Below, piece after piece: positions 12,807-17,766 of a stretch of 44,866 bases of DNA (position 1 is the first letter of the stretch; every line of letters starts with the position of its first letter). The DNA is taken from NCBI GenBank assembly GCA_903970435.1, contig CAJCIS010000084.1:1-44866 (forward strand), in the 5' to 3' direction. This DNA comes from Acidobacteriota bacterium (GTDB lineage: Bacteria > Pseudomonadota > Alphaproteobacteria > Acetobacterales > Acetobacteraceae). Under the pieces are notes generated by a model. It was given only the letters and a program-made list of their open reading frames with translations. It searched no databases and was not told where the DNA came from. The position numbers were made by a program, and so were the translations under genes.

Positions 12807-13634
12807 TTACTTGCGTATGCGCGGCGCCGGAGGGGCCGGGGGCGCACCTTCGCCCAAGCCACCACCACTAGCCAGAGACGGGCCCCCTGTTTTCGGGTCA
12901 ATTGACGGAGCTTTCTTGGGAATGTCTCGTTGCTGAAAGCTTACTGTAATCGTATTACCAGTAGCCGATTTATGCTCAAAATTCGCACCGAAATCGACGA
13001 TGGCCAACTTTATATCGATTCCTCCCTTTCCGTCGTCGGTTATTGTCAGGCCAAGTTTATAAGTCCCGCCTTTATCAGTTGACGGAGCTTTGAAATTGTA
13101 ATCCCAAAAGCACACGGATTGCAGCGTCGCTCCCTTTATCAGAGCCTCGCGCAACCCAAACAGGGCGTCTGCAATTGGCGCCGGTGCCGCATCCGGCGAC
13201 GCGACGTAATTTCGATTTTGCGCCGGATAAAGCGGAAGCGATATCTCTTGGGTGTTGGTTACATCCCGGCTAAGCGAGCCACTTGGTCCAATTGTTCCTG
13301 CAGGACCGATGACCGGAATTGTAAGGCCGAGCGAGCCACTGGCCGTCGTATCTACTGTTGTCGTTAAGTCGAGAGTGACTGACTCAACATCAAAGTCAAT
13401 TTTTCCCTCCCCACAAACGAATCCCGAAGCCGCAGCCGCTTGCCGTGCAGGATCCGTCTCGGGGTGCAGATAAGCTGCGTTTGCTTCGGCTTCATATACA
13501 CTGATCTGCCGCTTTATTTCGGCCTCGACCTGGTATATTCTGTCGGAAGTAATTGCATTTATGGGGGGCGTCTTGTTGACAGCGCATCCGCTGATCAATA
13601 GGGCCGAACCAAACACAAGCTTTCCCACGCTCAC
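12807..13634 (-). CDS. Lipoprotein with Trypco2-like beta domains (275 aa)
   Basis: An N-terminal signal ends in the lipobox LISGC (Cys17), so it is predicted to be lipid-anchored. A helical stretch follows (EAEIKRQISVYEAEANAAY). Two beta-rich blocks come next: GKIDFDVESVTLDLTTTVD running to NTQEISLPLYP (about residues 77-145), and YKLGLTITDDGKGGIDIK running to NTITVSFQQR (about 195-240). The pattern of a helix, 'I-x-F-x-v-x-s-V-x-L-x-L' strands and a final 'T-x-T-V-x-F' strand resembles trypsin-co-occurring (Trypco2-type) domains; this is from memory of the family and needs a profile search. The C-terminus is a Gly/Pro-rich tail. It follows the trypsin-like gene on the same strand after a 213-base gap. 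Confidence 0.7.
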   Translation of the reverse strand: MSVGKLVFGSALLISGCAVNKTPPINAITSDRIYQVEAEIKRQISVYEAEANAAYLHPETDPARQAAAASGFVCGEGKIDFDVESVTLDLTTTVDTTASGSLGLTIPVIGPAGTIGPSGSLSRDVTNTQEISLPLYPAQNRNYVASPDAAPAPIADALFGLREALIKGATLQSVCFWDYNFKAPSTDKGGTYKLGLTITDDGKGGIDIKLAIVDFGANFEHKSATGNTITVSFQQRDIPKKAPSIDPKTGGPSLASGGGLGEGAPPAPPAPRIRK

Positions 13635-13847: not shown

Positions 13848-15671
13848 CTAATGAATACATTTTCCAGCATTTAGTAATACTCGCAACCGTTTCAAGCTTG
13901 TGGATATCTCCTGCGGAGTGTCATGCGTCATATTTAAGTTACAACGGGGCCCAGCATATTGCTCAAAAAACCACGTCCAATAACCCAGCCTGCTTGGCTT
14001 TGAAGCAATACTCTCCCCGGCGACTACCGACGAGGCGCTCTCGCCACCATATGTCTCGAATATGGTCAGAATTGCGGACAAGGTCTGGTCGTTATAGACA
14101 CGAGGCAGCGATCTCGGATTATGATATAAGAGCGTGCTTACGACCTCGTTTGCCGCCCAGTCAGGGCTTTCACCGACTCCAGGAACTGCTTGAGCAAGGT
14201 CCTCCCTTCGACCCATACAGGCTACCACCCAGCTAGCGAACTCAGAAATGGCATCTGGTTGCGCCGAGAAACTATCGTTAGCCAAGGAATCGTGCTCGGC
14301 GATGACAGCGCGACACGGCAGCCCTATTTGGTTCCTAAATTGCCCAAGAAAACGCGCTCTCTGGAATTTTTTATCAGGCCCATCGGCATCCCGCGTGTAT
14401 GCCAACGCGCTCGCGAACATGTTGTCCAATTGAGCTATCGGCAACTGCTCGCTATCGAGCTTATCTGTGTTATTGTCGCGGCACGAAGCGTACACACTCG
14501 GCAAGGCGCCCTTTTGGCTGAAGCAAGATGGAAGTGCGGCGAATATCTGTTCACGCAACGGCCACGCGTCTTGCGCCAGCAGATTGGCAATATATCGCTC
14601 CCGTTCCCAAACTTCGAGCGGCTCTTCTAGACTGACGACACCCGGCTGTATTTTTGCCGGCTTCGGAATTGAAATATAAGTTCCCTCGTTAGGCGGTAGA
14701 AGCAGATCTGGTGCTTCAACAGCGCCGATCAGTAACGTCGGATTATCGTTCGATTTCAATTCTAGATTAGTTGCAAAGTTTCCGTCGCCATCCGTTGGCG
14801 TTGGTTCCTCCGGTCCAACGATCTCTTTTGCATCGCTTGGTATGGGTACCACTGCCTCGTTAGATCTTGCGGCTCGAGCCGAACCGCTAGCGTCACGAAC
14901 CAGGACGGTTCCCGTCAGATGGGCAACTGATTTGCCATCGCTCACTTGGTTCCAGGCTGGCTTTGGTTCAGCCCCTGGCGCAGGAAGATACACGCGAAAG
15001 GTTTGCAGCCAGGGCATTGCCCTGTCTAGGGGAATAAAATATTCAGTGCCCCCAGCGCCCTCGGAATCGACTGCGATGACGTTGCCGAATCGATTCACAA
15101 CTGGTGCACCGCTCCAACCCTTCCCGCCATCAACCTGAGCACGAATAAAGCCTTGATTTGTGTCCGGCAAGTCTATGACGCCGTGGCGGGCAGTAGCGGA
15201 TTCGCCGAACCCAAAGCCATAGAATGAAACGAAATCGCCTTGCGTAGCGTTGGGGGGCCACCCAAGAGGTAGTTTTGACCGTGGACTCACGGTGGTCGCT
15301 ATGTCCAGAGCAGCTAAATCCAAGGTGTCATGCAGGGACACATTCTTTGGGTCATACGGCACCGTCGTCACTGCAGGAGCTGTCTGAAATGAGATGTTTA
15401 TGCTTGCGACGTCATATCTGGTAGGACTATCTGGCGTGGACTTGGGACTAACCAAGTGCTTCGCGGTCAGTAAAATGCGATCCGAGACAAAAAAACCCGT
15501 TCCCTTTTCTGATGTACTATCGGCCCAGGTGGTTATTATTTCTACAACGGCGGCCTTTCTGGTCTGATCCCATATCCTTTGCTCAAGCTTCGTCGCGTCG
15601 TCACCGGTCTGCGAGTATGCTCGCTGGGACACGAAGGCGATCAGACTCAGCGCAATTAGATATCCCCTCAT
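13848..15671 (-). CDS. Secreted trypsin-like serine protease with large C-terminal extension (607 aa)
   Basis: The start ATG 15671 overlaps the upstream metzincin stop as ATGA, so translation is probably coupled. Residues 1-20 are a Sec signal ending RAYSQ. The S1/V8-like domain spans about 30-235: His72 in LLTAKHLV, probable Asp118 in LDLAALDI, Ser187 in GWSGAPV. All three triad positions are present, so it is predicted active. The remaining roughly 370 residues have a beta-rich block (about 255-335) and then a helical, Cys-containing region (CFSQKG, ASCRDN, LPCRAV, ACMGR, PRCNLN) that I do not recognise. Base composition is more AT-rich than the housekeeping neighbours. It is probably periplasmic or extracellular. 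Confidence 0.85.
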   Translation of the reverse strand: MRGYLIALSLIAFVSQRAYSQTGDDATKLEQRIWDQTRKAAVVEIITTWADSTSEKGTGFFVSDRILLTAKHLVSPKSTPDSPTRYDVASINISFQTAPAVTTVPYDPKNVSLHDTLDLAALDIATTVSPRSKLPLGWPPNATQGDFVSFYGFGFGESATARHGVIDLPDTNQGFIRAQVDGGKGWSGAPVVNRFGNVIAVDSEGAGGTEYFIPLDRAMPWLQTFRVYLPAPGAEPKPAWNQVSDGKSVAHLTGTVLVRDASGSARAARSNEAVVPIPSDAKEIVGPEEPTPTDGDGNFATNLELKSNDNPTLLIGAVEAPDLLLPPNEGTYISIPKPAKIQPGVVSLEEPLEVWERERYIANLLAQDAWPLREQIFAALPSCFSQKGALPSVYASCRDNNTDKLDSEQLPIAQLDNMFASALAYTRDADGPDKKFQRARFLGQFRNQIGLPCRAVIAEHDSLANDSFSAQPDAISEFASWVVACMGRREDLAQAVPGVGESPDWAANEVVSTLLYHNPRSLPRVYNDQTLSAILTIFETYGGESASSVVAGESIASKPSRLGYWTWFFEQYAGPRCNLNMTHDTPQEISTSLKRLRVLLNAGKCIH

Positions 15672-16453
15672 GGTCCACCCCATGGAGTGGGTCGGGTCCG
15701 TGTAAGCGTGGCGGCGACTAAAACCTTATACGTCGTTATATCCTTAAGCGATAACTTTGGTGGTCTTCCATATATATTATTGCAATAATTTACTTGCGAA
15801 TCAGGATCGTATGACGTGATGATTATTGGATCGACTCCGTGGAAGTCATTCGCTATCTCGCCCTTGTATATACTATAGCAGTAAGGATCTTTCTTTGGTA
15901 GATCAGGATTTAGCTGCTCATGTAAGAAACCGATGCTATGCATAAACTCATGAACAGCGATATTCTGAATACAAGTGGTTCTGTAGTAAGTCGGTTTCGC
16001 ACAATTCGCGTTCCACTTAACAAACGTAAAGTCAAGGAATACCTTTGTCGGCACACCAACACGATTGTAGCCCGTGCCTGAGGTTTGATAACCGATGTTT
16101 GAGTAAGCTTGCGCGTCAGAAATTATTATTTCGATCCGTGCTTTTTTTACGTTGTCGCATGGTGGCCAAACATCGCCAAAGGAGTACCGGTTGCCAGCAA
16201 TATTGTCATGGAGATTCGATGTAACCGCGTCCTTGGTAAGCTGCTTTTCCGCCACGTATAATGTCGCTTTCGATCGCCAGCAAACATCGATCGTTGTCGT
16301 TGGCCAAATACCAGACGCATCGACAATGCCATGCTGCGCAATGCCGCTGGTAGTTAAATCCTTTGGCGGTGGCGCTGCTTGAGCGACCGCACAGGAAATA
16401 AACGCTGGATTTAGCGCAATAAGGCTACTGACTGCGAGAAACCGGGCAAGCAT
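15668..16453 (-). CDS. Secreted metzincin zinc protease, astacin-like (261 aa)
   Basis: Residues 1-25 are a Sec signal ending AVAQA. The zinc site is HEFMHSIGFLHEQ (His168, Glu169, His172, His178), the full metzincin HExxHxxGxxH. The sequence after it (LNPD...YC) and the form HEQ point to the astacin/M12A-M10A side of the clan. The usual Met-turn S-x-M-x-Y is here SYDPDSQVNYC, with Val where Met is expected. Several Cys residues could form disulfides, fitting an exported enzyme. The stop overlaps the trypsin-like start (ATGA), so the two proteases are made together. No typical ribosome site is visible before the ATG. Confidence 0.85.
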   Translation of the reverse strand: MLARFLAVSSLIALNPAFISCAVAQAAPPPKDLTTSGIAQHGIVDASGIWPTTTIDVCWRSKATLYVAEKQLTKDAVTSNLHDNIAGNRYSFGDVWPPCDNVKKARIEIIISDAQAYSNIGYQTSGTGYNRVGVPTKVFLDFTFVKWNANCAKPTYYRTTCIQNIAVHEFMHSIGFLHEQLNPDLPKKDPYCYSIYKGEIANDFHGVDPIIITSYDPDSQVNYCNNIYGRPPKLSLKDITTYKVLVAATLTRTRPTPWGGP

Positions 16454-17040: not shown

Positions 17041-17766
17041 CTAGAACGGTATATCATCATCAAGGCTGGCCGGCGCCATCGTCGGCTTCGCGGCAGCCAA
17101 TCTTGGCGCAGTTCTCTCGTCCCCCTCAAGCAGCGAGCGAACTTCCTCGGCAATCTGCTCCGCCGTGCGCTGCCGCCGCGGCAAAGCTTGGTGTTTCGAA
17201 ATGAAGCCAGTCGGATCTTCGCCCATCTTTATGGAAATGATCTTGACCCCCCGCGCAACCGCAAACCCAATCTCCTGCTGCGTCCAGAAGCTCGCCGAGA
17301 AGCCGACTGTGTGCAGCGCGATGAAGGCGTCCATCGCGTAGAGCGCCCGCTCAATCTCGCCCTGCCACTCAAGTGTTGGATGAATGTCGTCATGAGCAAC
17401 AAATCCACTGATCCCGTACGGAGCAAGGCAATCCTTCAACCTTTTTGCCTTGTCCTTCTCATTTGAGACATGACTGATAAACAACCGCAACAAACTCGTG
17501 TCTTTCCAATTCCGAGGTGCAACCGATGTGCCGCGACGTGCGCTTGGCACCGGAACTTCCAATTCTTCGGCTATGCTAAGCAGAACGTCTGTATTAACGC
17601 CCTGCAACGCGGCTTTCGAATATGCCCATCTATTATTTCCCTGCCAATTGGTAATCGAAGCGATCCGATATTCCGCAAGAAACGCATCAATCTCTGCGAA
17701 AGTAAACTTCGCTTGCAGCGCCCGGCCAATTTTATCGACTAAATCTAGCTTCTCGGACACCCGCAT
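17041..17766 (-). CDS. TIR-domain protein with N-terminal helical domain (241 aa)
   Basis: Residues 1-72 are a compact helical domain (SEKLDLVDKIGRALQ, FTFAEIDAFLAEY, TDVLLSIAEELEV), reminiscent of the small adaptor domains found in front of bacterial TIR and other conflict effectors; the exact family is unknown. Residues 93-195 are a TIR fold: LRLFISHVSNEKDKA (beta-A/box 1), GISGFVAHDDI, LEWQGEIERAL, AFIALHT, and FWTQQEIGFAVARG, where Glu165 sits at the position of the catalytic Glu of NAD-hydrolysing TIRs. The C-terminal 45 residues are low complexity. No signal peptide, so it is cytoplasmic. Likely an NADase or cyclic-ADP-ribose-type effector in antiviral defence; activity is inferred. Confidence 0.85.
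   Translation of the reverse strand: MRVSEKLDLVDKIGRALQAKFTFAEIDAFLAEYRIASITNWQGNNRWAYSKAALQGVNTDVLLSIAEELEVPVPSARRGTSVAPRNWKDTSLLRLFISHVSNEKDKAKRLKDCLAPYGISGFVAHDDIHPTLEWQGEIERALYAMDAFIALHTVGFSASFWTQQEIGFAVARGVKIISIKMGEDPTGFISKHQALPRRQRTAEQIAEEVRSLLEGDERTAPRLAAAKPTMAPASLDDDIPF

Follow-up and report, generated by a model that had tools for sequence, protein, structure and literature searches.

The window analyzed here, a stretch of 44,866 nucleotides, carries a low-GC cassette on its minus strand. The last gene of this cassette encodes a predicted lipoprotein, P0001, and the other two encode exported proteases, one trypsin-like (P0002) and one metzincin-like (P0003). The genes and features of the region are as follows.

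12807..13634, minus strand: P0001, predicted lipoprotein of 275 aa with two Trypco2 blocks (two PF19631 stretches; profile scores against shuffles; a relative on a Rhizobium plasmid).
13584..13634, minus strand: predicted lipoprotein signal of P0001, residues 1-17, with the lipobox-like motif ISGC (motif scan).
13224..13553, minus strand: Trypco2 block 1, approximately residues 28-137 (best Pfam stretch, 70-133; home-made profile, 77-141).
13413..13415, minus strand: Cys74, between the block 1 helix and strand 1 (same place in the relatives L029, L009, L027, L030, and L032).
12927..13187, minus strand: Trypco2 block 2, approximately residues 150-236 (home-made profile, 194-236; alignment with single-domain Trypco2).
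13110..13112, minus strand: Cys175, at the equivalent place in block 2 (same place in L029, L009, L027, L030, and L008).
12810..12926, minus strand: Pro/Gly-rich C-terminal tail, residues 237-275 (composition).
13848..15683, minus strand: P0002, exported trypsin-like protease, 611 aa (PF13365, 2.7e-13; signal-like start by eye).
15668..16453, minus strand: P0003, exported metzincin-like protease, 261 aa (zinc motif; signal-like start by eye).
17041..17766, minus strand: P0004, TIR-domain protein (PF13676, 1.6e-11), upstream of the cassette and on the same strand.

The initial annotation placed a lipoprotein gene at 12807-13634, and this is what was found: P0001 is a single minus-strand open reading frame of 275 residues with a GTG start codon. 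A lipoprotein-type start is also present: the N terminus is a short hydrophobic stretch running into ISGC (residues 14-17, with the cysteine at residue 17), the single lipobox-like match that a motif scan returned in the protein. Lipid attachment and a membrane location are predicted from these sequence features. The trypsin-like neighbor that had been reported likewise lies upstream on the same strand (P0002), with a gap of 213 bases between the two genes.

The His, Asp, and Ser positions of P0002 (TAKH, DLAAL, and GWSGAP) align with those of three other trypsins. The long C-terminal region of the protein (residues 240 to 611, approximately) has no Pfam match listed. The P0003 gene overlaps that of P0002 by 16 bases, and its product contains an HExxHxxGxxH zinc motif (HEFMHSIGFLHE, residue 168) and scores 22.4 bits against PF01400 (Astacin), just below the Pfam cut-off of 22.5. 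The Met-turn methionine is a defining feature of metzincins. P0003 has Val at the position where four aligned plasmid metzincins have this Met, and we therefore refer to it as metzincin-like. Pfam scans of 12 window proteins revealed no VMAP, MoxR ATPase, or vWA partners. The TIR-domain protein P0004 gives ThsB-like PADLOC matches (best, 1.9e-7), and its link to the protease cassette is uncertain.

Between 13 and 18 kb, the GC content per 1-kb bin is 0.50 to 0.57, and the neighboring bins have approximately 0.60 to 0.69; further GC-poor bins lie elsewhere in the window (0.54 at 5 kb and 0.56 at 31 kb). The dip across the cassette suggests acquired DNA, and no plasmid match was found for the cassette DNA. 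Promoter-like sites numbered 8 against 3.5 expected (standard deviation, 1.6), and the terminator scan gave 6 against 6.1. We also observed an A/T palindrome, TTTTTGAAAAAAAGAA, with 51 matches on both strands at up to 3 mismatches against 0.1 expected. It occurs at 25 places (for example, 1679, 5245, 8208, 12716, 19029, 29949, and 43493), many of them intergenic (between called genes), and looks REP- or MITE-like.

P0001 had been proposed to resemble Trypco2, with a Pfam search as the suggested check. When this was run, PF19631 (Trypco2) matched P0001 with 46.9 bits (E = 3.4e-12), nearly twice the curated cut-off of 24.2, and two stretches of the protein each passed independently. Pfam listed no other family for P0001 up to E = 10, and nothing was listed in NCBIfam and PADLOC scans. 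As a control, a home-made profile was derived from 11 single-domain Trypco2 proteins of other genomes, which are encoded by open frames of approximately 105 to 155 residues and have no obvious signal by eye. P0001 scored 29.6 bits with this profile, whereas the top of 1000 shuffles reached 3.1. The two domains taken separately gave 15.4 bits (residues 77-141) and 11.6 bits (residues 194-236), so that with this profile each block alone is weak and the strength lies in the pair. The proposed identity with Trypco2 is supported because the PF19631 match is accompanied by a home-made profile score well above those of the shuffles. The final-strand motif that had been described can be read in both blocks, as NTQEISL (residues 127-133) in block 1 and NTITVSF (residues 227-233) in block 2.

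An AlphaFold model of P0001 (five rows) was poor, with a mean pLDDT of 38.9; it is therefore taken as a hint, and its helix/strand order alone was used. The modeled elements are helices at 25-55 and 153-170, a short helix at 62-67, and strands at 83-105, 120-136, 189-210, and 213-235, giving the order helix, two strands, helix, two strands. The helix part of block 1 rests on this model together with alignments. A model of one Trypco2 block (16 rows; mean pLDDT, 57.7), also poor, had the same helix-before-strands order. In sequence searches, neither a double-lipoprotein profile nor a single-domain Trypco2 protein retrieved any solved structure.

Lipoprotein relatives of P0001 were found in another genome of the host's taxonomic family, in one elsewhere in the phylum, and on a Rhizobium plasmid, and an exported relative without a lipobox was found in another genome of the host's class (G508). 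Exported relatives were called from inspection of their starts. They are listed here with their Pfam stretches and scores.

L009, genome G024: lipobox VAAC, two Pfam stretches, 42.4 bits.
L027, genome G870: lipobox LGAC, two Pfam stretches, 49.3 bits.
L028 2184-2771, genome G508: signal-like start without a lipobox, two Pfam stretches, 70.2 bits.
L029 7971-8756, Rhizobium sp. NXC24 plasmid pRspNXC24c: lipobox-like LSSC, one Pfam stretch, 34.6 bits.
L030, another Rhizobium plasmid: two Pfam stretches, 34.2 bits, with a lipobox-like piece in another frame, so that its export is uncertain.
L008, genome G048: a lipobox open reading frame and then a Trypco2 open reading frame with a stop between them, 29.6 bits.
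L032, genome G056: LGAC, with the first block alone complete; family alignment, E 2.2e-4.
L048, a fragment on a Sinorhizobium terangae plasmid: Pfam 14.5 bits against the cut-off of 24.2; home-made double profile, E 2.3e-6.

The plasmid protein L029 aligns with P0001 at about 39-40% identity over 82% (E 3e-35), and its second block rests on this alignment, because Pfam lists one stretch only. With the 11-protein profile, L028 scored 61.9 bits, L009 25.8, L029 20.8, and L027 16.9 (best shuffles, 8.7, 9.0, 4.9, and 10.3, respectively), and in L029 the first block alone was recognized.

Such proteins are rare. A search with P0001 matched 3 of 200 genomes of the host's taxonomic family, its own included, and an alignment of the protein family matched 5 of 240 at E 0.01, again counting its own. 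The PF19631 search missed both relatives found with P0001, and its counts are therefore lower bounds: at least 4 of 200 family genomes (3 over the cut-off), at least 4 of 385 genomes in the class sample (4 over the cut-off, own included), and at least 13 of 398 in the phylum sample (12 over the cut-off, own included). Searching plasmids with P0001 gave one record and searching phages gave nothing; scans of genome_contigs and viral_contigs confirmed no close relative, whether P0001 or a two-sequence alignment served as the query. L007 and L026 were left out as below the Pfam cut-off. L024 (27.2 bits) and L025 (26.3 bits) exceeded it, yet a partial match or open reading frame kept them out of the single-domain set of 11. 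L037 was dropped as a relative, being a single weak match in an open reading frame without the architecture. Several locus labels denote the same genes: L001, L002, and L031 are the window, L003 and L035 are L008, L004 and L034 are L009, L015 is L028, L023 is L027, and L036 is L032.

Besides the lipobox Cys, each intact two-block lipoprotein (P0001, L029, L009, and L027) has a single Cys in each block at the same place, after the helix and before the first strand; L027 carries an additional Cys beside that of the lipobox. Both block cysteines also are present in L030, and L032 has two block cysteines despite its cut-short second block. L008, which has the block 2 Cys and is missing that of block 1, counts against a strict rule. 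The three cysteines of L028, which has no lipobox, all lie inside the signal-like start, with none in the blocks, and 8 of the 11 single-domain Trypco2 proteins are without any Cys (the exceptions, with one or two, are L006, L014, and L022). The simple reading is that Cys74 and Cys175 probably form a disulfide between the blocks of P0001, which fits an oxidizing compartment. The Pro/Gly-rich tail is shared with fewer relatives: Pro and Gly make up 43% of the last 35 residues in P0001 and 40% in L029 but 3-9% in L009, L027, and L028.

We then considered whether the pairing with proteases recurs. A protease directly adjoins four of the nine exported members (the window, L028, L029, and L048), whereas the remaining five (L008, L009, L027, L030, and L032) have no adjoining protease in the sequence read. 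The window member is adjoined by both proteases, trypsin and metzincin-like. In G508, L028 lies 18 bases before an exported trypsin, the gene order seen in cytoplasmic pairs, in which Trypco2 precedes trypsin. On pRspNXC24c, L029 lies 63 bases before an exported metzincin; no trypsin adjoins it, and an alpha/beta-hydrolase-like open reading frame (weak Pfam match only) lies upstream. The L048 fragment overlaps a metzincin gene, with a trypsin next, on the S. terangae plasmid; this locus was found through the metzincin search and is therefore biased as evidence of recurrence. By motif scan, a trypsin-like open reading frame lies directly downstream of single-domain Trypco2 in 8 of 11 loci, and none was found at L006, L020, and L022. 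The order in the window, protease and then Trypco2, is the opposite of the usual one. As judged by eye, L009 lies amid conjugation-like genes and L027 between integrase-like and transposase-like genes.

The partner proteases are not closely related to one another. A P0002 search at E 0.001 did not find the G508 trypsin. Searches with P0002 also found no relatives in plasmids, nor did any pass E 1e-8 among 119 other genomes of the taxonomic family; weak matches in G870 and G048 were rejected as DegP-like by eye. A P0003 search of six genomes found its own and nothing in the five others, and the metzincin adjoining L029 is absent from the 15 plasmid records that P0003 matched (22% identity in the alignment). 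Since these partners are not close relatives, the pairing arose several times or is partly chance. In a set of 100 taxonomic-family genomes, P0003 matched two, its own and G001, and home-made profiles revealed no Trypco2 relative around the G001 metzincin.

Neighborhoods were examined in 9 of the 15 plasmid records matching P0003, including 2 of the 8 Bradyrhizobium records. A Trypco2-like fragment lies beside a P0003-type metzincin in the S. terangae record. The S. sojae, R. leguminosarum OyaliB, three Caballeronia, and Nostoc records contained no Trypco2 relative (6.4 bits or less with home-made profiles), nor did one accompany the second Caballeronia metzincin copies; the Deinococcus metzincin record was judged from annotation alone. 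A Bradyrhizobium plasmid lipoprotein (L043 2858-3946, and L052) went unmatched by the Pfam Trypco2 model and scored only 6.6 bits with the home-made profile, and it is therefore regarded as a positional analogue. On these plasmids this lipoprotein, a metzincin, a trypsin, and a lipoprotein-like alpha/beta hydrolase (DUF900) lie in a row (L043 2858-7160; L052 3858-8161). Relatives of the Bradyrhizobium lipoprotein occur in 9 records; that of Bradyrhizobium barranii (L053 3388-8580) is annotated as two CDS and has a serine protease on one side and an S8 peptidase on the other; an IS630 transposase adjoins. Separately, large proteins that look exported and that by eye contain propeller-like repeats are encoded near Trypco2 relatives (L048 5744-7111 and L030 9619-10869), and the latter has no Pfam match.

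In passages of PMC7159879, Trypco1 and Trypco2 are described as frequent neighbors of trypsin-like peptidases in VMAP systems, and passages of PMC10907252 describe Trypco2 as an adapter domain. The word "lipoprotein" occurs once in PMC7159879, within a reference title, and in the passages of PMC10907252 it refers to proteins other than Trypco2. The passages of the two papers report no tested Trypco2 function, and a literature search on PF19631, also in combination with "lipoprotein," returned no paper beyond these two. P0001 resembles Trypco2 as described in part of PMC7159879 in its profile match above the cut-off and its trypsin-like neighbor. Unlike that family (PF19631), it is predicted to be exported and lipid anchored, it has two domains and one Cys per block, its gene comes after the trypsin gene rather than before it, and its cassette includes a metzincin. 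The G508 protein shares with P0001 the two Trypco2 stretches, the signal-like start, and an adjoining exported trypsin but lacks the lipobox and the block cysteines. The Rhizobium protein L029 shares the lipobox-like motif, both block cysteines, the Pro/Gly tail, and an adjoining metzincin, but it has one Pfam stretch and no adjoining trypsin, whereas P0001 has two stretches and a trypsin. As presented in part of PMC7159879, the multi-peptidase/NucA System 3 of alphaproteobacteria also brings several peptidases together, trypsin included, and the membrane segments of some of them were counted as a likeness to the cassette; however, no NucA nuclease is among the scanned cassette proteins, which instead include a metzincin and a Trypco2 lipoprotein.

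P0001 is, on its predicted features, a real and rarely found exported two-domain Trypco2 lipoprotein within a known family. The suggestion in the initial annotation that a lipid-anchored version would extend Trypco2 to the envelope gains support from the predicted lipobox, the signal-like starts (by eye) of the neighboring proteases, and the further exported relatives. We propose that P0001 acts in the envelope as an adaptor or regulator of exported proteases, and we give this proposal an even chance of being correct. It draws on the domain membership, the lipobox-like motif, the neighborhood and its partial recurrence, the paired cysteines, the trypsin-like neighbors of most single-domain Trypco2 loci, and the low GC content of the cassette. 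P0001 would be lipid anchored in the cell envelope, and its two Trypco2 domains, each a helix followed by strands, would be tied together by the Cys74-Cys175 disulfide. As a noncatalytic envelope counterpart of cytoplasmic Trypco2, it would bind and position, or gate, a trypsin-like protease. In the window this would be the exported P0002, working together with the exported metzincin-like P0003. The three genes would make up a protease cassette acquired by horizontal transfer and plausibly used for conflict (defense or competition). Counted against this proposal are the five of nine members without an adjoining protease, the lack of close relationship among the partner proteases, and the reversed gene order with its 213-base gap, as well as the missing block 1 Cys of L008, the other GC-poor bins, and the poor models.

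P0001 might instead be an immunity or inhibitor component that holds both exported proteases inactive at the envelope of the producing cell and so prevents them from digesting it. It has no catalytic family match, is predicted to be tethered to the membrane via the lipobox, and is encoded with two exported proteases in a partly recurrent pairing, all of which would suit such a role. Given that Pfam lists no inhibitor family for it, that relatives without an adjoining protease have no local target, and that passages of PMC10907252 present Trypco2 as an adapter domain, we consider inhibition unlikely. We place at a similarly low level the notion that the protease neighborhood is by-catch of mobile DNA and that the lipoprotein serves mobile elements as an accessory envelope protein, functionally unlinked to the proteases. 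The five of nine exported members without a protease neighbor are consistent with this, as are the conjugation-like and the integrase/transposase-like surroundings of L009 and L027 (by eye), the GC-poor cassette in the window, and the lack of close relationship among the proteases beside different members; however, L028, L029, and L048 (found through its metzincin) also directly adjoin an exported protease, and the Trypco2 family is itself defined by trypsin neighbors in passages of PMC7159879.

Much less probable still is that P0001 is an effector or substrate that either protease would cut, for instance within the Pro/Gly tail with its Lys/Arg residues, to free a membrane-acting form built from Ser/Thr-rich hairpin strands. 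The tail does offer Lys/Arg sites, and the long hairpins in the model are predicted to be Ser/Thr rich with an alternating pattern by eye, but the model is of low confidence, L009, L027, and L028 have no Pro/Gly tail, and no pore-forming family was matched in Pfam.

Beyond the adaptor or regulator role proposed for P0001, a broader picture is conceivable, although we would sooner bet against it: a clade of disulfide-linked tandem Trypco2 lipoproteins, together with an exported trypsin and metzincin, may constitute a mobile proteolytic cascade that senses or acts in the periplasm, related to the cytoplasmic trypsin conflict systems but located on the envelope side. An exported Trypco2 protein beside one or two secreted proteases offers a simpler setting than a multigene NTPase system for testing the effect of the domain on its protease. 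Should the pairing prove functional, conflict logic of the kind described in the cytoplasm would run in the envelope too.
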